NCBI GenBank assembly: GCA_012959665.1
Contig: DUCT01000020.1
Span: 1 to 44,085, forward strand
Origin: Myxococcales bacterium
Lineage (GTDB): Bacteria > Myxococcota_A > UBA9160 > UBA4427
Direction of reading: 5' to 3'
DNA: 44,085 nucleotides
The notes beneath the pieces were generated by a model. That model was given only the letters and a program-made list of their open reading frames with translations, had not been told where the DNA came from and searched no databases. Below, in pieces: positions 7,219 to 41,517 of the stretch (position 1 is the first letter of the stretch; every line of letters starts with the position of its first letter). Made by a program: the position numbers and the translations under genes.

Positions 7219-8292
7219 TCACCCCTGGGGTCTGGCGATTTCCTCCTGGATGAGTTCGTCAAAGGCCTCGATGGGTTGGGCGCCGCTCAAGAATATGCCG
7301 TTGACGAAGAAAGCGGGCGTTCCCGAAGCCCCGAGTTGTGCGGCATCCTTGAGGTCTGTGGCGACCAGCGCCTCGGTTTCCGGGGCGCTCATGCAGGTCT
7401 CAAACTTTTCCATATCCAGGGCCAAGGTCGTCGCGTAGCCGGAGAGCTGCTCGCGCCCAAGGGCTCTCTGGTTGGCGAAGAGAAGGTCGTGGTATTCCCA
7501 GAAGCGGTCTTGATTTCCCGCGCAGATCGAGCCGTAAGCAGCGATTCGCGCGTTGTCGTGAAAGCTCAAGGGAAGGTGACGAAAAACGATTCGGACCTGC
7601 TCGGGATACCGGGCGGCGATTTCCTTCATTGTCGGAACGACTTTTGAGCAATAGGGGCATTGGAAATCGCTGAACTCGACAATGGTTACCTGCGCGGTTT
7701 CGGGTCCGAGGGCGTAACCGAGGGGCGCAACGGTCTTCCTCTCCCTGGGAAGCGAAACCACTACGGTTGCTTCGTCTCGGAGTCCTTCGCGAATGCTCGT
7801 CTCCCTGATCTGACCGAGGTATTCACGAATCGGAACCACCAGAGTCTCGAGGGTGGTTCCTGGGGCAAAGCGATTTTGATTCTCTGTATAGAATGTCTGG
7901 ACTTCAGCGTCCGTGACTTCGGGAAGTTCCGTGATTCTCGCGGTCATCCATTCCGTCTCACTCAGCTGGGCGGTCGCGGCTTCTCGCGCAATCAACCTTT
8001 CGTCGATGATTTCGTTGATGGTTTGGCGTCGAGCTTCGTACAGCGCGGCATCACCCTTGCCACCGGGAAATTTTTCGGCGAAGAGGCTGTCTTTGATTCG
8101 CCGGTCGACGTCCTCTAGGGCGATGGGATCGCCGTTGACCAGAGCGATGGGAGGCTGGTCGGAAACGGAGTCATCGTTCGCGTTATCTCCTGCATTTGCG
8201 CAGGCGAGTACCGCGACGAGGCCGAAGAGCACGGTCACTAACCCGGCGACTTGTCGAAGACGGGTGGTGTACTTTCTAATGGATCGCTTCAC
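7219..8292 (-). CDS. SurA-N-like / DsbA-family thioredoxin lipoprotein
   Basis: Probable lipoprotein of 357 residues. A basic, hydrophobic leader ends in a lipobox (VLAC, Cys31). Residues about 48-140 resemble the SurA/parvulin N-terminal helical chaperone region (VNGDPIALEDVDRRIKD, then QTINEIIDERLIAREA). Residues about 195-355 are a DsbA/DsbG-like thioredoxin domain (VTIVEFSDFQCPYCSK) with active site CPYC at 212-215 and a cis-proline loop SGTPAFFVNG. Expected role is extracytoplasmic thiol oxidation or isomerisation, possibly with binding of unfolded clients. The SurA-like plus thioredoxin arrangement occurs in deltaproteobacterial lineages. The domain-family call is firm; the exact function is inferred. 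Confidence 0.83.
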   Translation of the reverse strand: MKRSIRKYTTRLRQVAGLVTVLFGLVAVLACANAGDNANDDSVSDQPPIALVNGDPIALEDVDRRIKDSLFAEKFPGGKGDAALYEARRQTINEIIDERLIAREAATAQLSETEWMTARITELPEVTDAEVQTFYTENQNRFAPGTTLETLVVPIREYLGQIRETSIREGLRDEATVVVSLPRERKTVAPLGYALGPETAQVTIVEFSDFQCPYCSKVVPTMKEIAARYPEQVRIVFRHLPLSFHDNARIAAYGSICAGNQDRFWEYHDLLFANQRALGREQLSGYATTLALDMEKFETCMSAPETEALVATDLKDAAQLGASGTPAFFVNGIFLSGAQPIEAFDELIQEEIARPQG

Positions 8293-8356: not shown

Positions 8357-8989
8357 TCAGCCTCGCAGAATCCTCAGAAATCTGGCGAGTACTGGGGGCG
8401 CACTCTCGCGCCCGATAGCTTTCTCGGCTTGTCCCTGTCCCTGTCGGTGGCGAATAGCCTCGTTCGCCCGGGTGGATGAGGCCTCGCCCTGACTGTTGGC
8501 TGAGGGGATCGGCGTGAGAGAGAACTCGAGATGGAGGATTCGGAGGGGATCGATTTCCCGGATGGCCGCAGTCGCGTCGAGCAGGCAGCTGAATTCTTCT
8601 TCGGCTTGGGCGAGGAACTGACGAATGAGTACCGAAGGCTCCCCTGTTCCTGTTTGGGCGAGTTCCGCGAGGAGTTGGCGGCTCATCTTTGGACTGCGCC
8701 GAGAACCCAGAAGCGGCCAGTTCGATTGAACGGTGGCGATTCCTCGGGCGAGACAGCGTTCGGCTTCGGGGCTCGGGCTTTCCTGGTCGGCATCGTCGAT
8801 GAATATCGCCAGGGGGTAGGGCGGTGCGCTCTCCACAGGAATTCGGACCCGGGCGGTCACTCTTTCGCCCCGCGCGGTGAATTCCAGTCGCTGGCCAAGC
8901 GAGAGCGGGCCGGGGGTGAGCGAGACCGAGAGAGCTCCTTGGCTTTGGGGTTGAGCCGGGTGGGTAAGGCTGAGTCTCCGGGTGGGCAT
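8357..8989 (-). CDS. Degenerate, truncated alpha/beta-hydrolase-like protein
   Basis: The 210-residue product follows the dienelactone-hydrolase/peptidase pattern: RVRIPVESAPPYPLAIFIDDADQE where PLVVFLHGAG is usual, then RGIATVQSNWPLLGSRRSPK where the family has xxPLHGERxSPK. ILHLEFSLTPI sits where the nucleophile elbow GxSxG should be. The HG motif and elbow glycines are missing, and the chain ends where the C-terminal half with Asp and His would follow. The tail is low complexity (HRQGQGQAEKA). It is probably a catalytically dead relative or a decaying gene. No ribosome-binding site is obvious. It sits between the sigma factor and the DsbA-like gene on one strand. Confidence 0.55.
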   Translation of the reverse strand: MPTRRLSLTHPAQPQSQGALSVSLTPGPLSLGQRLEFTARGERVTARVRIPVESAPPYPLAIFIDDADQESPSPEAERCLARGIATVQSNWPLLGSRRSPKMSRQLLAELAQTGTGEPSVLIRQFLAQAEEEFSCLLDATAAIREIDPLRILHLEFSLTPIPSANSQGEASSTRANEAIRHRQGQGQAEKAIGRESAPPVLARFLRILRG

Positions 8990-9067: not shown

Positions 9068-9727
9068 TCAGCGCGGCAACAGCAACTTGCGTGCGCGATA
9101 GAGATTTGACTTGATCGCGTCCTCGGACTTCTTGAGCTTTGCAGCAATTTCGCTTATGGGGCGGTCGTCGATGTGGTGCAGGCGAAAGAGCATGCGCTGC
9201 TCATCGGTGAGTTTGTGGGCAGCGGAACTCATTTCCTCGATCCGCTCCTGGCACTCGTATTCCTCCAGCGGAGTGGGTCGAGTGCTGGCGTGGGCGGTGT
9301 TGCTCTCGGAGTTCTCTTCCATCAGAGGAACCGTAGGATGGCGCTTGCGCTTGAACCGGCTGGCGATCACTCGGCGAGTCACGCCGAAGATCCAGGCCGA
9401 GAACGGGGCTTCGCCCCGGTAGGAGTCCAGACAGGAGAAGACGGCGATAAACACCTCTTGGGTCGTCTCTTCCACATCGGCTCGAATGCCCATGCGTCGA
9501 TCGATAAAGCGGTATATGCGCTTGAAATACCGCTCGTAGAGGATCTCGAATGCTTCGCGATCGCCCTTGCGGACCTTGTCCACAATTTCTAGGTCGCTGC
9601 ATTCCTGCACGGGCTGATTGGCCGATGCCGGGCCCACTGGGCAGGCACTCGGTGCCGAGCTCTCGGTGGGCGCGTGTTGCGGAGCCCCACTGGGCTTCGT
9701 TTCGTTCCTGTTTGCCTGTTCTCGCAT
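9068..9727 (-). CDS. RNA polymerase sigma factor, sigma-70 family, ECF-like
   Basis: Region 2 is clear: GDREAFEILYERYFKRIYRFIDRRMG, then DVEETTQEVFIAVFSCLDSYRGEAPFSAWIFGVTRRVI. Region 4 follows: LTDEQRMLFRLHHIDDRPISEIAAKLKKSEDAIKSNLYRARKLLL, with a helix-turn-helix. No regions 1.1 or 3 are present, so the architecture is ECF-type. The roughly 45-residue N-terminus is low complexity, so the true start may be internal. No anti-sigma factor is adjacent; the neighbouring degenerate hydrolase is not an obvious candidate. An AT-rich segment with direct repeats lies upstream (9834-9862). Confidence 0.88.
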   Translation of the reverse strand: MREQANRNETKPSGAPQHAPTESSAPSACPVGPASANQPVQECSDLEIVDKVRKGDREAFEILYERYFKRIYRFIDRRMGIRADVEETTQEVFIAVFSCLDSYRGEAPFSAWIFGVTRRVIASRFKRKRHPTVPLMEENSESNTAHASTRPTPLEEYECQERIEEMSSAAHKLTDEQRMLFRLHHIDDRPISEIAAKLKKSEDAIKSNLYRARKLLLPR

Positions 9728-9939: not shown

Positions 9940-10542
9940 CTACTCGCCCAGGGATTCTTCGGTATCGGATTTGAGTCCGAGGTCGCTGTCTCTCAGATTG
10001 CTCCGGAAGGCGGGTAGTGGCGGGGCGGTCTCCGGTACGGTGAATTTCCTGACCGGGCCTTGTTGTCCCTCCGGGCTCGAAGGGCCTCTGGAGCCGACGG
10101 TTTCCAGTAGGAGGCCCGAATGGGGTCCAGCTCGCACAGCGGTGTACCGGACCAATTGGACGATGCCCGCGCGTAGGCTGCGGGATGCGGCTCTGGTTTC
10201 TGTCGCGAAGCTCGGGGCCAGCAGGATGGCTCGAACCGGTGTGTCTGGAGAGATTTTCAACTCGGGTGCGAGCTTGGCCCAGTCCCCCACGCGCGCTGCA
10301 ACCCATGCACGCTGGGCGAGGGAACGGGTTAAAAGCGCGGCATCACTTTCGCCCTCTAGGGCCAGCAGCATCAGGATCACGTCGCCGTGATCGTTGACCG
10401 TCACCAGATCGATGGGCGAGGCCAGTCCCATGATGTTTTCCGCGATTACGCGAAGTCCCGGATCCAGCTGGTGGAGTTGTGCCTTTACCCCTCTTCGTAG
10501 GTAGTCGATGGATAGGGGCTGGGTTTTTTGAATTTCGGTCAA
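9940..10542 (-). CDS. Hypothetical protein resembling an inactive PD-(D/E)XK nuclease fold
   Basis: A 200-residue soluble protein. The pattern LDPGLRVIAENIMGLASPIDLVTVNDHGDVILMLLALEGESDAALLTRSLAQRAWV resembles nuclease-fold proteins, in which a PIDLV-type acidic residue precedes a strand ending in an ExK. Here the second motif reads LALEGE, so the ExK lysine is not evident. RAILLAPSFATETRAASRSL fits a later strand and helix of the fold. The last about 45 residues are proline- and serine-rich and probably disordered. The TTG start overlaps the stop of the upstream MinD-like gene (TTGA), so the two are probably translationally coupled. Fold assignment is a pattern judgement, not a profile hit. 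Confidence 0.55.
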   Translation of the reverse strand: MTEIQKTQPLSIDYLRRGVKAQLHQLDPGLRVIAENIMGLASPIDLVTVNDHGDVILMLLALEGESDAALLTRSLAQRAWVAARVGDWAKLAPELKISPDTPVRAILLAPSFATETRAASRSLRAGIVQLVRYTAVRAGPHSGLLLETVGSRGPSSPEGQQGPVRKFTVPETAPPLPAFRSNLRDSDLGLKSDTEESLGE

Positions 10543-11333
10543 GGCAGTCCCCGGAGCATGTCGGTCAGCAGGAGTTGGGCTACGTCGCGAAGAGCCCTTG
10601 CCGCGGGGGATTGGGGGTGGGCGAGGCCGATGGGCCTTTGGGCCACGATGGCTCGGTAGACATGCAGGGCGTCGACCAGAAGTCCGTAGCTCTGCACATC
10701 ATGTCCGAGGTTCTTGCGAGCGGCCTGGGCTATACGAGCGAAGGCCGTCTCGGCTTCCGCGCGGCACTCGGCGCCGTGGATTGTGATTCCCACTCGGGCC
10801 TGGGACTGCTTTTGCACGATGGCTCTGGCAGTTTTCAAGGTGTCCTGTAGGTCCGAGGTTTTGGACGAGGTGAAGAGCAGGGTCCAGCGAAGGAGCGCGC
10901 AATTCTTCCACCCGGCGTCGAGCCACGATGGCGGGATGCGGACAAAGATCAGCCCGCCTTCGGCTCCGCCACGCGCCCCCGCGGCGGCCTCTCGGGCAAT
11001 CTGATCGAGGCTCTTGAGATCCTTCGCCAAGGTTGGTCGAAACTCGACGCCCAGAGGGCCCGCACCGGCCTGGGGCCAGAGGGGAGAGGGGCTGACATCG
11101 TCGGGTGAGATGACCAAGGCGTCCCCCCCGAGGCGTGCCACCTCTACGGCGAGGTTCCACGTGAAAGCCGCGCGAACTACGTCCCGGTCGCCGATGGGAA
11201 CGCCGACGATTTGAGGCGGTGAGGGTTGCGAGGAAGGTCTCGGTTCTTTTTGGGCAAGCCTACCCTCGGGCGCGTCCGGCTTAGCCAGTTCGGGTCCGAA
11301 GTGATGAAGGACGTCGGCGAGGTTGCGAGGCAA
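10539..11333 (-). CDS. MinD/FlhG-like protein lacking the Walker A lysine motif
   Basis: 264 residues with the outline of a MinD/FlhG/ParA ATPase. IVGVPIGDRDVVRAAFTWNLAVEVARLGGDALVISPDD aligns with the usual IxxVxSGKGGVGKTxxAxNLAxxLAxxGxxVLLIDxD. Later, DLQDTLKTARAIVQKQSQARVGITIHGAECRAEAETAFARI matches the TPEP-like and NRV-like segments, and AIVAQRPIGLAHPQSPAARALRDVAQLL matches the family C-terminus. The P-loop reads GDRDVVRAAF: KGGxGKT is gone, so ATP hydrolysis is unlikely. The N-terminus NLADVLHHFGPE is a separate short motif. TTG start, 9 nt after the ParA-CBM48 stop; it overlaps the next gene. Possible partner or anchor of the adjacent active ParA. Confidence 0.62.
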   Translation of the reverse strand: MPRNLADVLHHFGPELAKPDAPEGRLAQKEPRPSSQPSPPQIVGVPIGDRDVVRAAFTWNLAVEVARLGGDALVISPDDVSPSPLWPQAGAGPLGVEFRPTLAKDLKSLDQIAREAAAGARGGAEGGLIFVRIPPSWLDAGWKNCALLRWTLLFTSSKTSDLQDTLKTARAIVQKQSQARVGITIHGAECRAEAETAFARIAQAARKNLGHDVQSYGLLVDALHVYRAIVAQRPIGLAHPQSPAARALRDVAQLLLTDMLRGLP

Positions 11334-11342
11334 GCGCAGAGA

Positions 11343-12431
11343 CTAGCGGACGTGGAGAACTGAGTTGGTCTGTCCCATCGGTCCTGCTGAGCTGTTCTGA
11401 TTCGCTGGGTCAACCCTCCACTGGCCGTCTACGAAATAGCGGTATTGGTAGGTTCCGGGCGGCAAGCTCAGCACTTTGACCCATACCCGTGTTCGCCCCT
11501 CGGCTTCGACTCGGGAGAGGACGTTCCGGTCGGGCACCCAGTCGTTGAAGTCGCCGGCAATTCTCACGTCGCCGGCATCCGAGTCCCGGTATTCCACCAC
11601 GACCTCCCGCTTCTCTGGGTTGCTCGATTCCGCGTTATCGGCGGTGGTTGAGGCGACGACTTGTGGTCCACCCAAACTCACCTCCATGGCCAAGGCCGCG
11701 TAGTCCAGAGCGCCATTGGCCTTTGGCGCATATAGGCTGATGGGTTTGCCGTTTTGCGCGGCTTCGCGAATTTTTACGTTGAGTCGGACGACCGAGTCGA
11801 AGCACAGATCCCGGAAAAGCTCCCTGATTTCGCCCAGGGTTTCGCGGGCATAGCGTGTTCGCCCGTCGTAGAGAGTCGGCAGTACTCGAACCGAGAGGGA
11901 GTGCCCGACACGGTCCATCAGCAGGGAGATCGTCTCGAGGAGCTTTTGGACACCGTCAACGGCAAAGGAGCTGGTTTCCAGCGGTACGATGACTTCCTGG
12001 GAAGCCCTCAAAGCATTGAAAGTCAGGAGGCTGACTGCGGGTGGGCAGTCGATCAGGATGAAGTCGTAGTCGGGCTTGAGGGAATCCAGCGCCCGAGAGA
12101 GCCTCTCGGTGCGCGCCTCTTGGTGTTCTGCAGCGAGTTTCTGCTCAAGGGCCGAGAGCACGATTCCAGCAGGCGCAAGATCGACTCCGTGGGAGACATT
12201 GAGGATGATTCGGCTGAGTGCGGTCGCTCCGGCGGGTTCGACGAGAACCTCGTAAAGATTCTCGTCGAGTTCGTCCGGGTTTATGCCGAGCGCAAGGCTT
12301 GCGTGGGCCTGGGGATCCATGTCAACCACCAGAACAGAGAAGCCGTCTGCCGCCAAAGCACCGGCAAGGTTCACCGTCGTCGTGGTTTTCCCGCAGCCCC
12401 CTTTTTGGTTGACGATGCTGATCGTTCGCAT
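11343..12431 (-). CDS. ParA/Soj-type ATPase fused to a CBM48 (AMPK-beta-like glycogen-binding) domain
   Basis: Residues 1-255 are a canonical ParA: deviant Walker A KGGCGKTTTT, DMDPQAHASLALG, and Walker B DFILIDCPPAVSLLTFNAL. Residues about 275-362 are a CBM48/AMPK1_CBM module (VRIAGDFNDWVPDR...PGTYQYRYFVDGQWRVDP...TNSVLHV). It keeps both stacking tryptophans and the late asparagine seen in AMPK beta, with Arg where AMPK has the glycogen-contacting Lys. A short Ser/Asn-rich linker joins the two. Start moved from 12467 to ATG 12431, where family proteins begin MRTISIVNQKGG and GGGGGA lies upstream. No ParB follows; the partners are a MerR regulator upstream and a P-loop-less MinD-like protein downstream. 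Carbohydrate binding and a positioning role are inferred. Confidence 0.88.
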   Translation of the reverse strand: MRTISIVNQKGGCGKTTTTVNLAGALAADGFSVLVVDMDPQAHASLALGINPDELDENLYEVLVEPAGATALSRIILNVSHGVDLAPAGIVLSALEQKLAAEHQEARTERLSRALDSLKPDYDFILIDCPPAVSLLTFNALRASQEVIVPLETSSFAVDGVQKLLETISLLMDRVGHSLSVRVLPTLYDGRTRYARETLGEIRELFRDLCFDSVVRLNVKIREAAQNGKPISLYAPKANGALDYAALAMEVSLGGPQVVASTTADNAESSNPEKREVVVEYRDSDAGDVRIAGDFNDWVPDRNVLSRVEAEGRTRVWVKVLSLPPGTYQYRYFVDGQWRVDPANQNSSAGPMGQTNSVLHVR

Positions 12432-12618
12432 AGCGCATCCCCCGATTACTCGAGAACTTTTAGGCATCTGGCGTGCTGTCGATTCGGTCCAATTTACTTT
12501 TTGCTCGACATGTGCAGGGAAGTGTCCATCCCTTTTCCATTCTTAGGTCCAAAGTGCTAGAGGAATTCACCGCAGTGGTCACTTTTTCATTCGGGTCGGA
12601 GACCTTTCCCCAAGAGTT

Positions 12619-13188
12619 TCAAGCCCCTTTCAATGAGCGCTTGTTTTGCTCGGCTGACGTTGCTCGCTTTACGCTCCGAGGGACGTGTAGTGCGCGCCAT
12701 GCATCGAGTTCGCGCCGAAAGTCACCCACTCGAAATATCCACTCACCTCCCCGAATGGCACGAACATCGCTGCCCTCGCTGAGGACCAACAGCACATCCC
12801 CTGTGGCCACGAGGGTTATTTCTCGGGACCTCCACGCGACTTCCGGGAGAATTTCTCGTAGGGCCTGAATGCTGCTCCGGATTCGCTGGACTGAAACCCC
12901 GGCGTCGATCAAGCGCTTGGCGGCCTTGAGCGCAATCAGGTCCTCGAAGGTGTACCTGTGGTGCCCCCCTTGCGTCCTGATAGAAGGTCGCACCAGATTG
13001 GTCTGCGCCCAGTACTGCAACTGGCGCCGGGAAATGGCAAGCAGTTGCAGCACGTCCCGGGTCCTGAAAATTGCCGGGTCCAAGGGGTCGCTTTCAGGCT
13101 GCACTGGAGATTTGGGCAGTGAAGGCTGTTTCGCGCGATTCTGCCACGCGTCGTATCGCGCTCTAGTAGAACGACCTGCGGAACTCAA
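12619..13188 (-). CDS. MerR-family transcriptional regulator
   Basis: A winged helix-turn-helix lies at about residues 40-110: FRTRDVLQLLAISRRQLQYWAQTNLVRPSIRTQGGHHRYTFEDLIALKAAKRLIDAGVSVQRIRSSIQALRE. This is the MerR pattern, including the GGHHRY wing. The C-terminal part lacks the cysteines of metal sensors and ends in a basic helix, so the effector is unknown. TTG start; the roughly 39-residue lead-in is low complexity and the true start may be further in. It precedes parA-CBM48 by 187 nt on the same strand and is divergent from the 2-phosphoglycerate kinase gene, both plausible targets. Confidence 0.85.
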   Translation of the reverse strand: MSSAGRSTRARYDAWQNRAKQPSLPKSPVQPESDPLDPAIFRTRDVLQLLAISRRQLQYWAQTNLVRPSIRTQGGHHRYTFEDLIALKAAKRLIDAGVSVQRIRSSIQALREILPEVAWRSREITLVATGDVLLVLSEGSDVRAIRGGEWIFRVGDFRRELDAWRALHVPRSVKRATSAEQNKRSLKGA

Positions 13189-13429: not shown

Positions 13430-14824
13430 GTGACGGGCCAATCATCGGTGGTGGGCCTTATCGCCCCCACGCCATCGACTGGCCCATTGACTGGCCAATC
13501 GGATCACGTGTCGTTGAGTGCCAGCGGGTACCGCGCTTGGTTTGAGCTGGGACAAGAGGGAGCATTTTTGCCAGGCCCCAAGGCGGTTACTGATTCTGGG
13601 ATCGATGCGACGACCGAGGGTGCCGACTCGACGAAAGAGTTGCGTCGCGAATTGGCTTCGATGAACTCTGAGCAAGCCGAATCAAGGGTTCTGGTCGTGG
13701 AGGGCTCGGGGGTTGCCCGTCCCTATATGCGGGGGATCATGGTCCATGCCCTGATGGCGAAGGGAGTCAGCTTTGACGATGCCTATTCTGCAGCCCAGAC
13801 AGTGGCGGCACAGATTGAAGGCCGCGGAACAGTGGAGCGAGTCGAGTTGAGCAAAATCGTCAAGGAGATCTTGGGCGACGCCCCTGAAAACGAGCCACCC
13901 ATTCCACTGCCCACCGCGATACGAGTTGTGGGTAATCGGGGGAGTACCCATTTCTCAAAGGGCACTTTGTCCCAGAGTTTGCTGGCGGCTTCCCTGGTGC
14001 CCGATGATGCGTTTGAGGTCGCTCGTCAAATTGAAACGGGGTTGATCCTTCAGGGGCGAGATGAGGTCTCCCAGGCCGACTTGCGAGAACTGGCCTTCGA
14101 CGCGCTGCTGGATCGCTTTGGCGAACGCGTGGCCGAGCGCTACTTGGTCTGGCGGGAGTTCGAGGAGCCCGACAAGCCTGTGATAATTCTGCTTGGTGGG
14201 ACGGCGGGTGTGGGCAAGACCTCATTGGCGTTGGCTGTTGCTCAGCGCCTGGGTGTCAGCCGAATGCTTTCGACGGACTCGATTCGTCACATTATGCGAA
14301 TCATGCTGTCCGCTGACTTGGTTCCGGCGATCCATGTCTCTTCTTTTGACGCCTACCGTGAACTGCCGGCGCTGGGCCACGAGGACGATCCCGTGATTGA
14401 CGGGTTTCTTTCCCAGGCGACAACCGTTTCGGTGGGGGTACGCGCGATGATCGATCGCGCCATCGAGGAGAATACCAGTCTAGTGCTCGACGGAGTTGCC
14501 TTGGTGCCAGGTTTGATCGACCTGACGGAATACGCCGATCGGGCTCACGTTTTCTTTCTCATGGTTGGACTCCTGGATGAGAAAGCTTTCGAGAGCCAAT
14601 TTGAAGCGCGTGCACAACGACAGCGGGCACGGAACGCGGCGCGCTACGTGGAGCGACTCGAAGAAATCCTCAAGATCCAACAGTACCTTCTGGAGCAGGC
14701 GGATCGAAACAATGTGCCAATCGTCGACAATGTCACTGTCGATGGCTCTGCTCTCCTCGTGATCCGGCACGTGGTTGATTCTCTGCGTATCGATTGCGGA
14801 ATCGACTTCGCCAAGCGACTCTAA
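13430..14824 (+). CDS. 2-phosphoglycerate kinase-like protein with tandem ATP-cone domains
   Basis: Residues about 86-150 (VLVVEGSGVARPYMRGIMVHALMAKGVSFDDAYSAA...VELSKIVKEIL) and about 160-245 (AIRVVGNRGSTHFSKGTLSQSLLAASLVPDDAFEVA...VSQADLRELAFDAL) are two ATP-cone-like regulatory modules. The kinase domain follows, with P-loop GGTAGVGKTSLA near residue 255 and STDSIRHIMR. It resembles archaeal 2-phosphoglycerate kinase, which makes 2,3-bisphosphoglycerate for cyclic 2,3-diphosphoglycerate. Bacterial homologues are poorly characterised, so the substrate is uncertain. The ORF starts at GTG 13430, but the first 77 residues are low complexity and ATG 13661 (MNSEQAESRV) is a serious alternative. 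Confidence 0.75.
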   Translation: MTGQSSVVGLIAPTPSTGPLTGQSDHVSLSASGYRAWFELGQEGAFLPGPKAVTDSGIDATTEGADSTKELRRELASMNSEQAESRVLVVEGSGVARPYMRGIMVHALMAKGVSFDDAYSAAQTVAAQIEGRGTVERVELSKIVKEILGDAPENEPPIPLPTAIRVVGNRGSTHFSKGTLSQSLLAASLVPDDAFEVARQIETGLILQGRDEVSQADLRELAFDALLDRFGERVAERYLVWREFEEPDKPVIILLGGTAGVGKTSLALAVAQRLGVSRMLSTDSIRHIMRIMLSADLVPAIHVSSFDAYRELPALGHEDDPVIDGFLSQATTVSVGVRAMIDRAIEENTSLVLDGVALVPGLIDLTEYADRAHVFFLMVGLLDEKAFESQFEARAQRQRARNAARYVERLEEILKIQQYLLEQADRNNVPIVDNVTVDGSALLVIRHVVDSLRIDCGIDFAKRL

Positions 14825-29195: not shown

Positions 29196-29972
29196 CTAAT
29201 CTTTCGGGGCGCGTGGGCCACCGACTCTCGCTTCCGAACCTTGATCGTCTTCTCGGGCTCGCTGGCTTTCAACCTCCCAACGCAGGAGGAGCAAGTAGAA
29301 GAATGCACCCGCGAGGGCGAGGTTGCCCAGTAGAAAGGGCAATCCCATCCCGTCTCCAAGGCTGCCCTGCTTCAGGTTCTCGGGGTGCATGCTGCGGCTT
29401 CCAAAGATCTCGATCACGTAGTAGTTCAGCGGGATGAGGACCAGCCCCAGGACGCCATAGATCGCAGCGAAGCGTGCGGTGCGCGGGTTCCGGCCACCGA
29501 AACCGCGCAGCAGCAGATAGGCGAGATACACGAACCAGAGCAGGAGGGTCACGGTCAACCGCGCATCCCAGGACCACCAGACTCCCCAAGTTCCCCTGGC
29601 CCAGATCGGTCCGGTCACGAGCATCAGGGTGCAGAAGATCACGCCGACCTCGGCGCTCGCGATGGCCAAGCGGTCCAAGTCCTCCCGCCCGCGTCCGAGG
29701 AACACCATTCCCGCGAATCCGGTAATCACGAAGCCGAGGTACGCGCCGTAGGCTAGGGGAGGGTGGACGTAGAGGATCTTCTGAATCACGCCCTGGGTAT
29801 GGTCGATGGGTGCGCTGACCACCGACCAGGCGTACCCGATCGTCAGCAGCCCGAGGACGATGCCCAGGGGCCGGCGCCAGCGACTCATTCGGGCTTCAAG
29901 GGGCGAGGGAATATCGGCCTCGGGATTCGGCGCGGTTTCGTTGCCGGGTTTCATTGCCGTGATCCTCTTCAT
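29196..29972 (-). CDS. ccmC: Haem exporter permease CcmC
   Basis: Integral membrane protein with about six helices that loads haem onto CcmE. The tryptophan-rich haem-handling loop is GTWGVWWSWDARLT. Flanking axial histidines are in VHPPLAYGAYLG and the later RSMHPENLKQG segment. 258 residues is close to the family norm. ATG 29972 has a poor ribosome-binding site; ATG 29954 has AGAGG 9 nt upstream and is an alternative. An approximately 104 nt gap separates it from ccmB, the largest inside the operon apart from ccmE-ccmF. Confidence 0.92.
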   Translation of the reverse strand: MKRITAMKPGNETAPNPEADIPSPLEARMSRWRRPLGIVLGLLTIGYAWSVVSAPIDHTQGVIQKILYVHPPLAYGAYLGFVITGFAGMVFLGRGREDLDRLAIASAEVGVIFCTLMLVTGPIWARGTWGVWWSWDARLTVTLLLWFVYLAYLLLRGFGGRNPRTARFAAIYGVLGLVLIPLNYYVIEIFGSRSMHPENLKQGSLGDGMGLPFLLGNLALAGAFFYLLLLRWEVESQRAREDDQGSEARVGGPRAPKD

Positions 29973-31437: not shown

Positions 31438-33359
31438 CCGGGCTCCTGCCCGGCTTCGAGCCCGCTCCCGCATCCGGCACAAAAGCTCCAGGAACCCTGG
31501 ATGGCAATTCCGCAACCGGGGCAGGTGGCTACGGACTCGGGTCCGGGGACGGCGGCGATTCTGGGTCCCGCCGCGCCTCCGCGGTCCTTCGAAGCGGCGA
31601 GGCGTTCCTCGCGCATGAGCGCGATGGCGTCGCCCCGGAGTTCTTCCCGTAGCACGCGGAAGTCGGCGTCGTCGATCTTTCCGGTCTCGAAGTCGTGGTC
31701 GAGATCGTGGATGGATTCGTAGAGGATTTCCCTTTCGAGGGCGAGCTCCGAACTCGCTACCGCTGGGCCCGGACCGGTACGTCCCCGGAGCGGTGAAACC
31801 ATGAAAAAGGCCGCGAGCACGGCCAATGCCAAGGCTGCAGCACGGCCTCCGGCGGTTGTACCCGCTCCCCGTTGGAGGGGCGTGAGCTTGATGGAGACGG
31901 TTTCGCCGTCCGCAATCTGGTACGCCTCGCGGTGCAGGTAGAAGCGGGTGCCCTGCTTGAAGGGCCGCTTGCGATGCAGGCGTGCGCTTTCGATGATGAC
32001 GCCGGTGTCCGCCACCAACACATTGAGCAGTGCCGTCCCGCGTTCGAAACGAAGATCGAACTGCGCGCTGTCCTCCACCGGGATTCGGTAGCGGTAGCCG
32101 ATGACCGACGGGCCTGGCGCCAGGGGGCCGCGAACCGCTAGGCCGCCTTGGCCGTTGGCCTCGACACCGAGCAGGCGGGTCGATCCGCTGAGGCCGAGGA
32201 ATTCGGCGTTCGGGGGCAGGTCGAAGTTCAGGAGTTGTCCGCCCACCGGAGCCAGCAGACGCGTGGTTCCCGCAACGGAGACATGCATCTCGGCGCTTAC
32301 GCGAATGGCTGTGTCGTCGTGATCGATCCAGAAATCGGCCCGGGAAATCTCGAGTTCGCTCAGATCGCTGGAACTGGCAGGGACGGGCAGCGTTAGGCGA
32401 ACGGGGCCACCCGGGGCAACGGCGTCACCGACGTAGCTCGCGTATTCCACTTCGTCGATGGCGATGCGCTCGGGAGGATCGGCGAGTCCGTTGCCCTGGG
32501 GCGCATCGGTTCCCGCGGCGACAAGGACTCGCAGCTGGCCGGCTCCCGAGGGCAACGCATCCACGACTTCGAATTTATCGTCGGGGGATTCGCCGCTGGC
32601 GTCGGGTCCGTTCAGGAGGTAGCCGTAACGGATATCCTGGGGGCCGGGATAGATAGGCCCCCAGAAGGCGATTCGGTCGCCTTCGCGGACGAGATCAGAA
32701 CGCTTCCCCCCCTGACCGTCGATGTATTCGGTGATGTCTTCGGGGAGCGCTGCGGAAAAGATCGGGGTCTTGGCATCCCGTCGGTCCTCGTTGACATAGA
32801 TGACTTCATCCATGGAGTTGACGACACGATGGGAAACCTGGACGAACAGTTGCCCGCCCACCCAGTCAAATTTGTAGGTCACCTGGGGGATCTCGAGGGC
32901 CTCGCCGCTTTCAACGCTCTCGTGGAGGGTCAACTGGACGATCAGTTCGTTCTGCCCCGGGGCAAACACGGCTCGCTGGGCAAAGGGGACGCCGAGATAC
33001 TCGGTACCGACCAGATAGGTGATATCCCCCGCGCTGGAGATTCCCTCAAAGACGAAGCGACCCTCGGCATCGGTCCGTGTGCCCATCAAGCCGGGTGCGC
33101 CATCCGGCCGCAGGGCGTACAGGGCGACGGGCAGGTCCGCCAGCGGAGCCGGGTTTTCGCCCACCTGGGCCTGGCCCCGGATTACCCCGGAGCCCGCTGG
33201 CGGTTTGGGGACTTCGCGTTGGGGCCCCGTGACCTGGGGAGGCGCCTGGGCCCAAACGAGTCCTGGGATCAGCAGGAGTAACAGGATAATGCCCGCGCGA
33301 CTCCCGCGGAGCGCTCTGCTCCCGATGGTTCTCAGGTCGGTGGCTTTGGGTTGCTTCAT
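31434..33359 (-). CDS. Ccm-operon membrane protein with zinc ribbon, CcmI-like C-terminal region
   Basis: 641 residues, not a described Ccm protein. A signal peptide or anchor (IILLLLLIPGLVWAQ) is followed by a carboxypeptidase-regulatory-like beta domain (about 70-150: PVALYALRPDGAPGLMGTRTDAEGRFVFEGI). Long beta-rich extracytoplasmic regions (150-500) follow. A second membrane helix sits near 508-524. A cytoplasmic helical segment comes next (EREILYESIHDLDHDFETGKIDDADFRVLREEL), of the type seen at the start of CcmI-like proteins. It ends in a double-CxxC zinc ribbon (613-632: CPGCG...CAGCG). Start ATG 33359 overlaps the ccmF stop (ATGA); the track start 33536 lies in ccmF. Position suggests a role with CcmF in handling apocytochrome; this is inferred. 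Confidence 0.72.
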   Translation of the reverse strand: MKQPKATDLRTIGSRALRGSRAGIILLLLLIPGLVWAQAPPQVTGPQREVPKPPAGSGVIRGQAQVGENPAPLADLPVALYALRPDGAPGLMGTRTDAEGRFVFEGISSAGDITYLVGTEYLGVPFAQRAVFAPGQNELIVQLTLHESVESGEALEIPQVTYKFDWVGGQLFVQVSHRVVNSMDEVIYVNEDRRDAKTPIFSAALPEDITEYIDGQGGKRSDLVREGDRIAFWGPIYPGPQDIRYGYLLNGPDASGESPDDKFEVVDALPSGAGQLRVLVAAGTDAPQGNGLADPPERIAIDEVEYASYVGDAVAPGGPVRLTLPVPASSSDLSELEISRADFWIDHDDTAIRVSAEMHVSVAGTTRLLAPVGGQLLNFDLPPNAEFLGLSGSTRLLGVEANGQGGLAVRGPLAPGPSVIGYRYRIPVEDSAQFDLRFERGTALLNVLVADTGVIIESARLHRKRPFKQGTRFYLHREAYQIADGETVSIKLTPLQRGAGTTAGGRAAALALAVLAAFFMVSPLRGRTGPGPAVASSELALEREILYESIHDLDHDFETGKIDDADFRVLREELRGDAIALMREERLAASKDRGGAAGPRIAAVPGPESVATCPGCGIAIQGSWSFCAGCGSGLEAGQEPG

Positions 33360-35326
33360 GCGGGCTGTCCGCTTCCCGGCCGCGCGGGATGCGGCCAGAG
33401 AATCGCGACCCCCCCCATGGCAAAGAGGATCGCACCCGCCCATATCCAGTTGACCAGGGGGTTTTGATAGATCTTTACGGTGGCCGAACCGTCGGGCTCG
33501 ATGGCATTGAGGATCACGTAGATGTCCTCTGACCAAGTCGAGTAGATGGAGGGAATCGTCGAGGGCTGTTGTTCCAGCCAGTAGATCCGCTTCTCAGGCT
33601 CCATGACGGCCAGGGGTTCTCCATCCTTGTAGAGCGCGAGCCGTGCTGTGGCGCCGCCGTAGTGCTGTCGTGTGATGGGCTCCGCGGTGAGGTACTGGAG
33701 TCGATAATCTTGGACCTCGACGGAATCGCCGGGCTCCATGTTCTCCAGGGTCTCGTAATTGAAGACACTTCCGGAAATGCCCAGGAGAATGATCACGACT
33801 CCCATGTGGATGATGTAGCCCCCGTAGCGTCGCTGGTTCTTGCGCAGGAGGGTCATGAACGCCGTTGCGGGTGATTCGCCGTGGGCCCGGACACGGGCCC
33901 GAATGGCCTGGGTGTATTCCTGGCCGATGGTTCCCGCGACAAAGGCGCAAAGCCCCCAGCACGTCAGGGCCCAATACCCCACCTCGCCCCAAAAGATGGC
34001 CGCGAGGACAAGAGTCGAGCCGACGCCCAGGGATACGGGAATCTTGAATTGGCGTCTCAAGCTGGCGGGGCTGGCCTTGCGCCATGCCACCAGGGGGCCG
34101 ACCCCAGTGAGAAAGAGCAGGATCAGCACCAGTGGGCCGGTGACTACGTTGAAGAAGTGAGGGCCCAGGGTTAGTCGCTCACCACTGAGGGATTCGGAAA
34201 AGACCGGCAGCATGGTGAAGCCGAACACGACGGCAAGCAGCACCATGAACACCCAGTTGTTGAGGATGAAACTCGACTCCCGCGACACCACGGATTCCAG
34301 TCGGTTCGGGCTGGCCAGTTCCTTTCGCCGGAAAATGACCGCGCCATAGAAGAGCGTCGCGGCAACGACCACGTAGCTGAGGAAAATCGGCTTGTACCAT
34401 CCCGCGTCGGTGAAGGCGTGGACGGATTGCACGATTCCGCTCCGTGTGAGGAAGGTGCCGAAGAGGCACATCGTGTACGTGAGACCGATCAGTACGACGT
34501 TCCAGGTCTTCAGCATATTGCGCTTTTCCTGGATCATCACCGAGTGCAGGTAGGCGGTGGCAGCCAGCCAGGGCATCAGGGAAGCGTTCTCCACCGGATC
34601 CCAAGCCCAGTACCCGCCCCAGCCCAGCACTTCGTAGGCCCACCGGCCACCCAAGACGATTCCGCAGCCCAGGGTCAGCCAGGCGATGAGACTCCAGCGC
34701 CGGGTGGTGCGAAACCAGGAGGTGCTGAGTTCGCCGGTGACCAGGGCGGCGAACGCGAAGGCAAAGGGTGTCGCGAAGCCCGTAAACCCCAGGTAGAGCA
34801 TGACCGGGTGAATCATCATAACGGGGTGTTGGAGCAGAGGGTTCAAGCCCTGGCCGTCCGAGAGCACCTGGTCGTGGGGAAGGCGTTCGAAGGGATTGGT
34901 CAGAAATTCAAGCAGGCCCAGGAAAAAGGCTGCGTTCAGCAAAAGCATCACGGCGACCCAGGGAATCAGGCTCGGGTGCAGTTTGCGGTTGGCAAAGACA
35001 CCGGCTGACCCGAAGGCCATGAGGAGGAACACCCAGAGCATCAAGGAGCCCGCCTGGCCGCCCCAGAGTGCGCCCAGGCGGTAGTGAAGTTCCATACTGC
35101 GCGCCGAGTGTTGGGCCACGTAGGCCAGGGAAAAGTCGTTCTGGGCCAAAGCCCAGAAGAGGGCAAACATGGCCACGGCCAGAAAGCCGAAAACCAGGTA
35201 GACCGCGCGTTCGGCCACCCGGCCCCAGTCCGCGTTCCGGTTGAGGCCCGCATAGATTCCGGCCACGATCCCGGCACCCGCGGCCAACAGGCCCAGGCGG
35301 ATCGCATAGAGTCCGAGTTCGGACAT
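33356..35326 (-). CDS. ccmF: Cytochrome c haem lyase CcmF
   Basis: Multi-span haem lyase of 656 residues that receives haem from CcmE and joins it to apocytochrome CxxCH motifs. The tryptophan-rich loop GWGGYWAWDPVENASLMPWLAATAYLHSV is exact. Conserved histidine regions include HPVMMIHPVMLYLGF, and FLTRSGIVQSVHAF is present. The C-terminal periplasmic domain (GSVFNYETLENMEPGD...) precedes a last helix. The track start is TTG 35329; ATG 35326 follows directly and has GGGAG with a 7 nt spacer. About 140 nt separates it from ccmE. Confidence 0.95.
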   Translation of the reverse strand: MSELGLYAIRLGLLAAGAGIVAGIYAGLNRNADWGRVAERAVYLVFGFLAVAMFALFWALAQNDFSLAYVAQHSARSMELHYRLGALWGGQAGSLMLWVFLLMAFGSAGVFANRKLHPSLIPWVAVMLLLNAAFFLGLLEFLTNPFERLPHDQVLSDGQGLNPLLQHPVMMIHPVMLYLGFTGFATPFAFAFAALVTGELSTSWFRTTRRWSLIAWLTLGCGIVLGGRWAYEVLGWGGYWAWDPVENASLMPWLAATAYLHSVMIQEKRNMLKTWNVVLIGLTYTMCLFGTFLTRSGIVQSVHAFTDAGWYKPIFLSYVVVAATLFYGAVIFRRKELASPNRLESVVSRESSFILNNWVFMVLLAVVFGFTMLPVFSESLSGERLTLGPHFFNVVTGPLVLILLFLTGVGPLVAWRKASPASLRRQFKIPVSLGVGSTLVLAAIFWGEVGYWALTCWGLCAFVAGTIGQEYTQAIRARVRAHGESPATAFMTLLRKNQRRYGGYIIHMGVVIILLGISGSVFNYETLENMEPGDSVEVQDYRLQYLTAEPITRQHYGGATARLALYKDGEPLAVMEPEKRIYWLEQQPSTIPSIYSTWSEDIYVILNAIEPDGSATVKIYQNPLVNWIWAGAILFAMGGVAILWPHPARPGSGQPA

Positions 35327-35467
35327 CAACTTGCTCCCTCATTCAAGCGCCGGCTTGGCGCAGAGCGCTCAAATCCGACGTGTCGCTTCCGCCCGATGAA
35401 TTTCTACGGGGCTGGTTTCTCCTGCTCCGATTCGGGGCCCGAGCCCAAAGCCTGGCTGGCCGATGAA

Positions 35468-38722: not shown

Positions 38723-39499
38723 CTAGCGGAAGAGATCTTCCTCGGGCTTGCGCAGTAGGTCCTCGAGCTTGCCCTCGCCAACACGGGGAACGCCTTGGAT
38801 CCAGACCGCGGGAATGCCGGCATCCTTGATCATCAGCAGCCCGGCGGCGGCGGCCAATTGGTCCACCGTGGCCATGGTGGTGACCTGGAGTTCCCGGCCC
38901 ATCCAGTCCTGGCTGCCCCGGATATCGGCGATGGGGGCGATGCCCGCCGAGCCGATACAGACATCCACCAAACCCTCGCGCCAGGGCCGGCCAAAGGTAT
39001 CGCTCACCACGACGGCGAGGTCGGTATGGCCCAGGGCGGCGAGCCCGTCGCGCAGCCGAGCCGCCGAGGCGTCGCTGTCCACGGGCAGCAGCACGGCGAT
39101 ATCACGGCCCGGCGTGTTGGAGAGGTCGACTCCCGCGTTTGCGCAGACGAGTCCGTGGGAGGTCTCGCAGATCATGACCCCGCGACCCCTTCGCACCACG
39201 CGAACGCTTTCGCCCAGAACGATTTCCACGTGTCGGGGATCCTTGCCGTCTTCCTCGGCGATGCGAAGCGCCTCGGCGCGGGGCTCGACATCGGCCAGGG
39301 CCAGGGTGCGGCCCTCGGCCTTGGAGATGATTTTCTGGCAGACCACGAGGATGCCCTCGCCCAAGTCCAGGCCGGCTGCGTCGGCCGCGGTGTGAATCAA
39401 CCCGGCCAGGTCGTCGCCGGTATTGATCGCCGGAATCCCGCCCAGGGCGGTCATGCGGATGGGGGCCGGAACGGCGGGAGAAGTGGCTGAATCGGTCAT
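38723..39499 (-). CDS. cofE: Coenzyme F420-0:L-glutamate ligase
   Basis: GTP-dependent ligase adding the gamma-linked glutamates to F420-0. Clear family text: IRMTALGGIPAINTGDDLAGLI, VVCQKIISKAEGR, ICETSHGLVCANAGVDLSN, LLPVDSDASAARLRDGL, VVVSDTFGRPWREGLVDVCIGSAGIAPI and DQLAAAAGLLM. It is a stand-alone 258-residue CofE, without the C-terminal nitroreductase-like domain of actinobacterial FbiB. Start ATG 39499 chosen because the longer track ORF (39631) overlaps cofC heavily. 10 nt after the cofC stop. Confidence 0.95.
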   Translation of the reverse strand: MTDSATSPAVPAPIRMTALGGIPAINTGDDLAGLIHTAADAAGLDLGEGILVVCQKIISKAEGRTLALADVEPRAEALRIAEEDGKDPRHVEIVLGESVRVVRRGRGVMICETSHGLVCANAGVDLSNTPGRDIAVLLPVDSDASAARLRDGLAALGHTDLAVVVSDTFGRPWREGLVDVCIGSAGIAPIADIRGSQDWMGRELQVTTMATVDQLAAAAGLLMIKDAGIPAVWIQGVPRVGEGKLEDLLRKPEEDLFR

Positions 39500-39509
39500 G
39501 GACGGCGCC

Positions 39510-40214
39510 TCATTGTGGATCCACCGGAGCGGATTTTTTCGTGATCGGAGCCGAGGACGCCGGGGGTTCGGCCGACCAGCCCAGGCTTTCGAGCAGAAGC
39601 CGGGTGTGGGCTCCGCCTTCCTTTTGCCCAAGGAAACTCCGCAAATCTTCGGCGCGGTCCAAATCGATGGCGAGTGAGGGGAGGTCGATTTCGCACAGGG
39701 GGACGCCCGCTATTCGGGCTGCCTCCCGGTGCCGGGCAGCACTTTGGGGGCCGAAGCACGAGGGCAGGGCGGCGTAGGGGCGGCGCAGGAGCGCCGACGT
39801 GCCACCGTCCCGGGAGGGGGCGAGGACCGCGGACGGGCCTGGCGCCATGGCGTCCAACGCATCGAAGAGTCGCTGCACTTCGCCGGACTGGGCACCCGGC
39901 ACGTCGCCCAGAACCACGAGCAAGGGGGCATCGGGCGCGAGACCGAGTTTGCCCGGGGCGGCGTCGATCGCCGCATTCAGCCCGGGGTCGGGGCCGTGCA
40001 ACACGTGGGCGCCCAGGCGGAGCGCGTGCTCGGCCACCCGATCATCCGGGGTCGCGACGGCGACGCGGTCGATTCCCGGGGTTTCATGAAGGGCTCCGAC
40101 CAGATCTTCGAGCATGGCGAGACACAGCGCGTTGAGTTGTTTTCGGGGCAACTCGGGGAGCAGTCTAGACTTGCTCGCCGCCAGGGATTTTACGGGAATC
40201 ACCACGGCCGTCAT
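39510..40214 (-). CDS. cofC: 2-phospho-L-lactate (or phosphoenolpyruvate/3-phosphoglycerate) guanylyltransferase CofC/FbiD
   Basis: Activates a three-carbon phospho-acid with GTP to give the side-chain donor used by CofD. MTAVVIPVKSLAASKSRLLPELPRKQLNALCLAMLEDLV is the nucleotidyltransferase N-terminus. GDVPGAQSGEVQRL and APSRDGGTSALLRRP are the metal and GTP segments, and CEIDLPSLAIDLDRAEDL ends the core. Archaeal, mycobacterial and some proteobacterial enzymes use 2-phospholactate, phosphoenolpyruvate and 3-phosphoglycerate respectively; sequence reading alone does not settle the substrate. ATG overlaps the cofD stop (ATGA). Confidence 0.92.
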   Translation of the reverse strand: MTAVVIPVKSLAASKSRLLPELPRKQLNALCLAMLEDLVGALHETPGIDRVAVATPDDRVAEHALRLGAHVLHGPDPGLNAAIDAAPGKLGLAPDAPLLVVLGDVPGAQSGEVQRLFDALDAMAPGPSAVLAPSRDGGTSALLRRPYAALPSCFGPQSAARHREAARIAGVPLCEIDLPSLAIDLDRAEDLRSFLGQKEGGAHTRLLLESLGWSAEPPASSAPITKKSAPVDPQ

Positions 40215-41182
40215 GCTTCCGACTCCGCGAGTTCGAGGGTGGCGGCCGCGAGACGCGCCGCTGCATCGGGGCTCACCATCATCGAGTCGGTGACTCGGGT
40301 CTCAAGGCCCAGGGCTTTGATCTCGCTCTCGAGTTCGGCGTCGCGCTGATCGAACACGTAGCCGTCAATCCAGGGTTGGTAATGCCGGGCGACGCCCAGG
40401 GCCGAGACCTCCACCCCGATGCCCCGGAGCAGTTGGCTGGCCGGCCCCTTCACGGGCGCGCCGCCCACGATGGGCGAAACCGCCACCACCGGCGCGGGGC
40501 TCTTCGCGATGGCCTCGGCGATGCCGGGCACCGCCAGGATCGGCCCGATGGAAACCACCGGGTTGCTGGGGCAGACCACGATGGCCCGGGCCTGAGCAAT
40601 GGCCTCGAGCACGCCGGGGGCCGGGCGGGCCACCTGGGCGGCGCCGAGATCCACCGATGCCACCGCATCGGGAGCGCCCTCGCGGATCATGTAGTCCTCA
40701 AAATGCATGCGCCGACCGTCGACGAGATCGACCAGGGTGGGGCAGGGATCCTCGGACATGGGCAGGATCCGGGGAACCGCGCCCAGGGTTCGGCGAAGTT
40801 CGTCGGCGATTTCGGCAAGCCCCGCCCCGGCCTTCAGCCGCAGGGTGCGGTGCAGGCAATGAGCGAAGTCGCGGTCGCCCAGGCGGAACCAGGCTGGGTG
40901 GCCCAACTTGTCCAGGGTGTCCACGATCTCGAAGCGATCGCCCTCGAGCCCATAGCCCAGGCTCTCGTTCACCTGCCCGGCCAAGGTGTAGGTGACGATG
41001 TCGAGGTCCGGGGCCACGTGCACCCCGTAGAATTCGCGGTCATCCCCGGTGTTCACGATGGCGACCACGTCTTCGGGGGGCGCGACACGGACGAGGCCGC
41101 GCAGAAAGCGCGCGGCGCCTACGCCGCCCGAGAGAGCGACGATGGGCCGAGAACGACCGGTTTCTCGGGGGGCGGTGGTCAT
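40211..41182 (-). CDS. cofD: 2-phospho-L-lactate transferase (Fo transferase) CofD
   Basis: Transfers the phospho-acid moiety to Fo, giving F420-0 or dehydro-F420-0. IVALSGGVGAARFLRGLVR, NTGDDREFYGVHVAPDLDIVTYTLAG, LGDRDFAHCLHRT, PMSEDPCPTLVD, CPSNPVVSIGPILAVPGI and PIVGGAPVKGPASQLLRG are diagnostic. 323 residues, usual length. The track joins it to a 980-residue frame; ATG 41182 with GAGG 5 nt upstream is the true start. First gene of the cofDCE operon; the Fo synthase genes are not in the window. Confidence 0.95.
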   Translation of the reverse strand: MTTAPRETGRSRPIVALSGGVGAARFLRGLVRVAPPEDVVAIVNTGDDREFYGVHVAPDLDIVTYTLAGQVNESLGYGLEGDRFEIVDTLDKLGHPAWFRLGDRDFAHCLHRTLRLKAGAGLAEIADELRRTLGAVPRILPMSEDPCPTLVDLVDGRRMHFEDYMIREGAPDAVASVDLGAAQVARPAPGVLEAIAQARAIVVCPSNPVVSIGPILAVPGIAEAIAKSPAPVVAVSPIVGGAPVKGPASQLLRGIGVEVSALGVARHYQPWIDGYVFDQRDAELESEIKALGLETRVTDSMMVSPDAAARLAAATLELAESEA

Positions 41183-41492
41183 TCGGACCTCGGCGCGTGC
41201 CCGGGCCCGAAGGCGAGCAGCGTCGGCAGGAGGGAGGGCGCGAGCGGTTGCATGGTCCGCGAGTTTTCTGGAGCCGGGGCGGCGAGTCAAGCACCCCGAA
41301 AGGGCGCCGGGAAACCGAGACCTTCCCGGGTCCCTGCGCCGGTGTGCCGGGGGATCGCCGAGGTCGCCTTGGCGTGGATATTCGGACCGGCCTCGCCGTG
41401 ACCGCAGAGCGACAGAGGGACTCGGGGAGGGGGTTTTCGTCGGTCGCCTCCCGGTTTTTGAGCCGCCGGCGCGGCATGACTCTTGCTCCTTG
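41183..41492. other. Intergenic region between divergent cofD and propeller-like gene
   Basis: About 310 nt of very GC-rich sequence that should contain both promoters. No convincing -35/-10 pair, riboswitch or small gene was found. Long frames crossing it on both strands look like compositional artefacts. Confidence 0.5.
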
Positions 41493-41517
41493 GGAGAGCC
41501 ATGCTCATTGGCTCTCC
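41493..41517 (+). promoter_or_regulatory. Hairpin enclosing the start codon of the propeller-like gene
   Basis: GGAGAGCC (41493-41500) and GGCTCTCC (41510-41517) pair perfectly over 8 bp. The 9-nt loop begins with ATG 41501, and the Shine-Dalgarno GGGAGAG lies in the stem. In RNA this would sequester the ribosome-binding site, a possible cis translational control. Confidence 0.5.

Follow-up and report, generated by a model that had tools for sequence, protein, structure and literature searches.

The window analyzed here is a stretch of 44,085 nucleotides (contig DUCT01000020.1) from a Myxococcales bacterium whose source assembly is an uncultured metagenome-assembled genome (MAG; G000, 3.57 Mb, 268 contigs). 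On its minus strand, a gene for a MerR-type regulator is followed by genes for a ParA-type ATPase fused to a CBM48 carbohydrate-binding domain (ParA-CBM48, or H), a protein that lacks a P-loop and has a predicted MinD/FlhG fold (G), and a protein with a predicted nuclease-like fold (F). The sequences suggest, with a probability of about 0.6, that H is an orphan ParA-type ATPase and G the adaptor dedicated to activating its ATP hydrolysis. The linkage of these genes throughout their clade, the intact active-site motifs of H, the loss of the P-loop from G, the identity and exclusivity of a ParB-like peptide at the N terminus of G and its persistence on exchanged bodies, and the corresponding changes in the pocket of ParA were computed directly. 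From these we infer binding, stimulation of ATP hydrolysis, a gradient on the nucleoid and a cargo. The N-terminal peptide, which an earlier note on this sequence had missed, suggests the mechanism.

Of 91 genomes in the window's Myxococcota class, 81 contained ParA-CBM48, spread over two orders and about 45 genera; it was missing from all 288 other genomes of the phylum searched at E ≤ 1e-55, a threshold that very divergent fusions may escape. The genomes without it were mostly small or incomplete. One exception is G032 (5.0 Mb, 99% complete), whose lack of the gene suggests that ParA-CBM48 is dispensable. The 82 homologues from the class were used for the residue and motif counts given below. 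Relatives of G were found at 42 loci among 84,980 named species genomes, nearly all in MAGs, and the genomes were mostly labeled Myxococcales, Myxococcota or Deltaproteobacteria, with one Spirochaeta; this range would fit the GTDB class UBA9160. One genome (G015) contains two ParA-CBM48 cassettes (L062 and L147) on separate contigs, each at a contig end.

The order MerR, ParA-CBM48, G, F, extracytoplasmic function (ECF) sigma factor, hydrolase relative and DsbA protein, with constant outer genes, was found in about 30 genomes from 11 families of the window's order. In the second order, ParA-CBM48 adjoins a gene that weakly matches the G profile, and this pair lies between the phosphomannomutase and J genes as in the window's order; MerR, F, the ECF sigma factor and DsbA were not detected at these loci. 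Because the gene order recurs in this many genomes and families, and partly in the second order, the four-gene set is a clade-wide module and not a chance cluster. The earlier note had proposed a conserved module of all four genes, with linkage in distant genomes as its test. The conservation holds for ParA and its P-loop-less MinD-fold partner, and the linkage holds for two orders of one class but not beyond the class. In most of the window's order a MerR gene precedes ParA-CBM48; several lineages with both H and G lack it. Constant membership was rejected for MerR, which is absent from many ParA-CBM48 loci and appears to be an accessory regulator. The nuclease-like gene F is dispensable to the module.

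The deviant Walker A motif KGGC[G/A]KTT was intact in all complete copies of H (81/82, the remaining one being cut at its start), which agrees with the active-looking ParA ATPase described earlier. The catalytic residues D58 and D60 (Myxococcus xanthus numbering) were each kept in 82 of 82 homologues, and the basic DNA-binding position R238 was K or R in 81. The position of catalytic N64 was occupied by histidine in all 82 (DPQAH), and for this reason H is considered a ParA-superfamily relative rather than a standard Soj.

No significant Pfam family was found for G, the only match being TIGR01969 at E 0.005. The AlphaFold2 model of G had a predicted local distance difference test (pLDDT) score of 85, with the first 25 residues disordered, and matched FlhG, FleN and MinD (Foldseek E 2e-13, template modeling [TM] score 0.65). 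A profile search of the PDB also gave FlhG/FleN, at 2e-12. None of 76 G homologues contained a Walker A motif; four GK[ST] strings were judged to lie in out-of-frame 5′ extensions of the open reading frames (ORFs). The sequence of G is not that of a working MinD/FlhG ATPase, and the earlier description of G as a P-loop-less relative of MinD fits both the homologues and the model. Its likeness to FlhG, FleN and MinD is in the predicted fold, whereas the missing Walker A motif, the absence of an adjoining FlhF and the ParB-like N-terminal peptide with a linker set it apart. The lack of FlhF and of a P-loop also bears out the earlier distinction from FlhFG.

The protein whose gene directly follows ParA-CBM48 starts, in most of the window's order, with [M/L/V]-[P/A]-R-x-L-x-D-V-L-H-Y-F-x-P-E. 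The peptide was found 3′ of 78 of the 82 ParA-CBM48 genes, including locus L157 with one change; in the second order it is preceded by a short N-terminal extension. Loci L054 and L056 have a degenerate peptide, and at loci L128 and L131 neither G nor F was found. The peptide is exclusive to this position. A search for the peptide pattern in the first 53 loci, which comprise 5,828 ORFs, gave 47 matches, and a search for the DVLHYF codon pattern gave 20 matches in 41 whole genomes, every match of both searches being in the G-position gene. The synonymous codons varied across the DVLHYF matches, indicating that selection acts on the peptide. Between the two orders, the peptide was 59% identical and the bodies 20%. 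In loci L124 to L127 the peptide is carried by different or shortened bodies, of which the body at L126 is F-like. The low pLDDT at the N terminus of the G model is consistent with a free peptide.

The canonical ParB in the same genomes begins ALGRGLGALI and has the residue spacing of the G peptide. Mutations of L11, L15, L18 and I19 in M. xanthus ParB served to define its interface with ParA, and stimulation of the ATPase depends critically on R13 (PMC12462528). Residues R13/L15/L18/I19 of this protein align with R/L/V/L of the G peptide, with identical spacing. Proteins that activate ParA/MinD ATPases have been described as modular: a short, basic peptide at the N terminus is attached to an interaction domain or to diverse bodies (PMC7993993). 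G shows this activator pattern, beginning with a short peptide that contains R/K and hydrophobic residues and continuing into a disordered linker; its peptide is less basic than known activator peptides and contains acidic residues.

The pocket residues of ParA were mapped with structure 8RAY (M. xanthus ParA 21-274 D60A). The position of Y81 was Y or F in 80 of 82 ParA proteins, and C or L were found only in L054 and L056, the two loci with a degenerate peptide. The E82 position was E or D in all 82. Covariation was tested at ten published pocket positions, with locus L128 omitted. Three or more deviations were found in none of the 78 ParA proteins with an intact peptide partner (maximum, 1), compared with four in L054, six in L056 and three in L131, where the partner is lost. 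The changes V150L and F155L recurred in two lineages and were carried by none of the 78.

Several observations weigh against an activator-peptide reading of these data. The covariation represents two evolutionary events only, and the Y81 change had been seen before the enrichment test was run. The ParA proteins with deviating pockets are divergent overall, with 20 to 30 deviating columns outside the pocket versus a mean of 6. The ParA of L128 has no G or F at its locus, and its pocket is nevertheless intact. Finally, the acidic pocket residues D110 and E117 of M. xanthus ParA are V/I and K/R in H. With these replacements and with histidine at the N64 position in 82 of 82 homologues, the details of docking and of catalysis must be different from those in M. 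xanthus ParA. The E117 position was K or R in 80 of 82 ParA-CBM48 proteins, and this exchange, alongside that of N64, possibly insulates the system from canonical ParB.

By analogy, the H-G pair may work like ParA-activator positioning systems. Similarities to ParABS, as represented by M. xanthus ParA, include the deviant Walker A motif, the catalytic aspartates, the basic DNA-binding residue and the peptide-pocket tyrosine of H, together with a partner peptide of R-x-L-x-x-hydrophobic-hydrophobic spacing. In contrast to ParABS, H carries an extra CBM48 and the replacements described above, and its 3′ partner has a MinD fold instead of the CTPase/Srx and helix-turn-helix domains of ParB. The relatives checked contain a separate canonical parA-parB pair elsewhere in the genome. 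Because it has no ParB, the system is not a member of ParABS, and the earlier distinction from plasmid partition is borne out. PomXYZ and McdAB resemble it in combining an orphan ParA with an activator that has a short N-terminal peptide on an unrelated body (PMC7993993; PMC12204374) but differ from it in that the body of G is a P-loop-less MinD fold and its peptide is less basic, with acidic residues. Neither a ParA-CBM48 protein nor a MinD-fold protein that activates ParA was described in the papers found by a literature search, whose coverage excluded most subscription journals.

The genes could alternatively form a transcription-control module: the MinD-fold proteins H and G would target the neighboring MerR and ECF sigma factor, much as FleN restrains FleQ, and CBM48 would receive the signal. 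FlhG and its relative FleN have the folds closest to G, and in the window's order the genes are flanked by MerR and an ECF sigma factor. We regard this alternative as improbable, given that the second order retains the H-G pair with no ECF or MerR detected there, that several lineages with H and G are without MerR, and that the ParB-like peptide and the pocket covariation would be left unexplained.

The CBM48 of H is closest to the glycogen-binding domain of AMPK-beta. The ligand residues of AMPK-beta, which we take to be W100, K126, W133 and N150, correspond among the domains present to W in 79 of 79, R in 78 of 79, W in 78 of 78 and N in 73 of 78; two other ligand positions were variable across the homologues. 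The retained tryptophans suggest that the domain has some ligand. Nearly all of the 26 genomes searched have no other AMPK1_CBM domain. The CBM48 is absent from L060 and L061, and a frameshift splits it in L130. In a glycogen system, ParA would use this domain to bind glycogen granules or to detect them, serving either to position stores or to sense carbon. The H domain differs from that of AMPK-beta in being fused to ParA and in occurring in genomes mostly without GlgA/GlgB: in contrast to the 81 class genomes with ParA-CBM48, only 13 of 91 contained GlgA and 29 of 91 GlgB, with neither in the window's genus (GH57-type branching enzymes and external glycans were outside the search). Furthermore, L060 and L061 still have ParA and the peptide. 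Since GlgA and GlgB are missing from most class genomes, those of the window's genus among them, glycogen is unlikely to be a general cargo. A glycogen system is quite unlikely overall, and the earlier suggestion of a carbon-sensing module is not supported in this sense.

It is very unlikely that the genes are ordinary neighbors kept in synteny by vertical inheritance without a common function. The phosphomannomutase, trmB and rlmN genes around the locus are syntenic too, but at L061 ParA, G and F stay together apart from the usual neighbors, and neither the unique peptide nor the pocket covariation would be expected. Anti-phage defense and a phage or plasmid origin were rejected, as PADLOC gave weak generic ATPase/MerR matches with no system that fits, in line with the earlier exclusion of known defense systems, and only a generic ParA PHROG was found at a locus that is syntenic on the chromosome.

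F also had no significant Pfam family, and a profile search of the PDB was without a match. The AlphaFold2 model (pLDDT 87) was most similar to NucS/EndoMS (Foldseek 2vld, E 6e-5) at a low TM score of about 0.4, so F looks like a NucS-type PD-(D/E)XK fold in the model, consistent with the nuclease-fold-like protein noted before. Identification as NucS by sequence profile was rejected (NucS_C at best 0.11, in two members), and the fold assignment comes from the model. The catalytic residues of NucS are D160, E174 and K176 (PMC7343888). In the F homologues, the catalytic D was kept in 57 of 60 and the E-x-K positions were hydrophobic, with the register taken from the sequence pattern and not from a residue-level superposition. 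F thus shares with NucS/EndoMS the predicted core fold and one conserved acidic residue, while the E-x-K positions and a conserved C-terminal tail differ; F is likely catalytically dead. The tail, FRSGLxxxDL, follows a disordered linker and is a second conserved short linear motif, present in homologues as well. This suggests a second partner-binding tail. The neighboring hydrolase relative has a GFSxG motif that looks intact in most of the order and is degenerate in the window's genus. Several proteins of the conserved block look like dead enzymes.

The activator-peptide reading would operate as follows. ATP-bound H dimers would bind the nucleoid, and the free G peptide (R-x-L-x-D-V-L-x-Y-F) would dock in the pocket of H equivalent to the ParB-peptide site of ordinary ParA. 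The docked peptide would stimulate ATP hydrolysis and free H, and the resulting H gradient would position or partition whatever the body of G and F hold. The body of G, a MinD/FlhG fold minus the P-loop, may be a platform for binding or dimerization, and F, with a NucS-like fold without catalytic residues, probably acts as another adaptor. The CBM48 of H, which is sometimes lost, may provide an extra ligand contact, probably with a glycan or protein surface, and MerR would be an accessory regulator. Taken together, the sequences point to an undescribed system for arranging something inside the cell. A more specific version, which we consider doubtful, is a ParA positioning system with a glycan-binding ATPase, in which the cargo, or a track replacing the nucleoid, is a polysaccharide or a structure bearing glycans and the activator is a dead MinD-type ATPase with an acquired ParB-type trigger peptide.

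Table 1. Positions of the genes and motifs of the locus in the window
Feature	Position	Strand	Remarks
MerR-type regulator (I)	12619..13188	-	189 aa; helix-turn-helix and conserved C-terminal stretch; Pfam MerR_1 3e-12
ParA-CBM48 (H)	11343..12467	-	ORF of 374 aa; Pfam AAA_31 1e-50, AMPK1_CBM 1e-12; PDB Soj/ParA 1e-44
Deviant Walker A motif of H, KGGCGKTT	12381..12404	-	KGGC[G/A]KTT across homologues
CBM48/AMPK-beta type glycogen-binding domain, C terminus of H	11343..11603	-	PF16561; PDB AMPK beta-2 2.5e-10
P-loop-less adaptor (G), predicted MinD/FlhG fold	10539..11333	-	TTG start; AlphaFold2 and Foldseek, FlhG 2e-13
ParA-binding-like N-terminal peptide of G, MPRNLADVLHHFGPE	11289..11333	-	Motif scan 3′ of ParA-CBM48; low pLDDT
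NucS-like PD-(D/E)XK fold protein (F), predicted; probably catalytically dead	9940..10542	-	AlphaFold2 and Foldseek, 2vld 6e-5
C-terminal tail of F, FRSNLRDSDL (consensus FRSGLxxxDL)	9979..10008	-	Homologue alignments and motif scan
ECF sigma factor (E)	9068..9727	-	Sigma70-ECF 7e-28; 3′ neighbor, conserved in window's order
Alpha/beta-hydrolase relative (D)	8357..8989	-	Relatives match Hydrolase_4 1e-7; window copy without Pfam match
DsbA-like thioredoxin with SurA_N domain (C)	7219..8292	-	Conserved neighbor
J, divergent neighbor	13430-14824		ATP-cone and P-loop kinase-like domain; adjoins ParA-CBM48 in both orders

The close packing of the four minus-strand genes was confirmed (Table 1). 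The ParA stop codon is separated from the TTG start of G (11333) by 9 nt, G and F share a 4-nt TTGA overlap (10539-10542), and a gap of 151 nt lies between ParA-CBM48 and the upstream MerR gene. The conserved block continues 3′ of F with the ECF sigma factor, the alpha/beta-hydrolase relative and the DsbA protein. Translation of H probably starts at 12431 (MRTISIV), 12 codons inside the ORF, because the homologues mostly begin with MRTI and a Shine-Dalgarno-like stretch, GGGGGAT, is present. No sigma-70-like promoter was found, terminators did not exceed chance level, and Rfam gave no structured-RNA match.

Elsewhere in the window, F420 cofactor genes include a CofE-like ligase (38723-39631) and an unusually long ORF of 980 aa (40211-43153) in which CofD occupies only the C-terminal end (671-940). 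Two cytochrome c assembly proteins were also found, a CcmF-like ORF (33356-35329) and a second Cytochrom_C_asm ORF (29196-29972).

The locus offers a putative pair of ParA and activator that is open to direct testing, and its relatives form a natural series in which bodies are swapped, peptides are lost and pockets change to match. In it, CBM48 is fused to a ParA, and a MinD fold without a P-loop has probably been recruited as the partner of another ParA. The pair bears on how ParA/MinD systems acquire new cargo and remain insulated from the chromosomal ParAB of the same cell.

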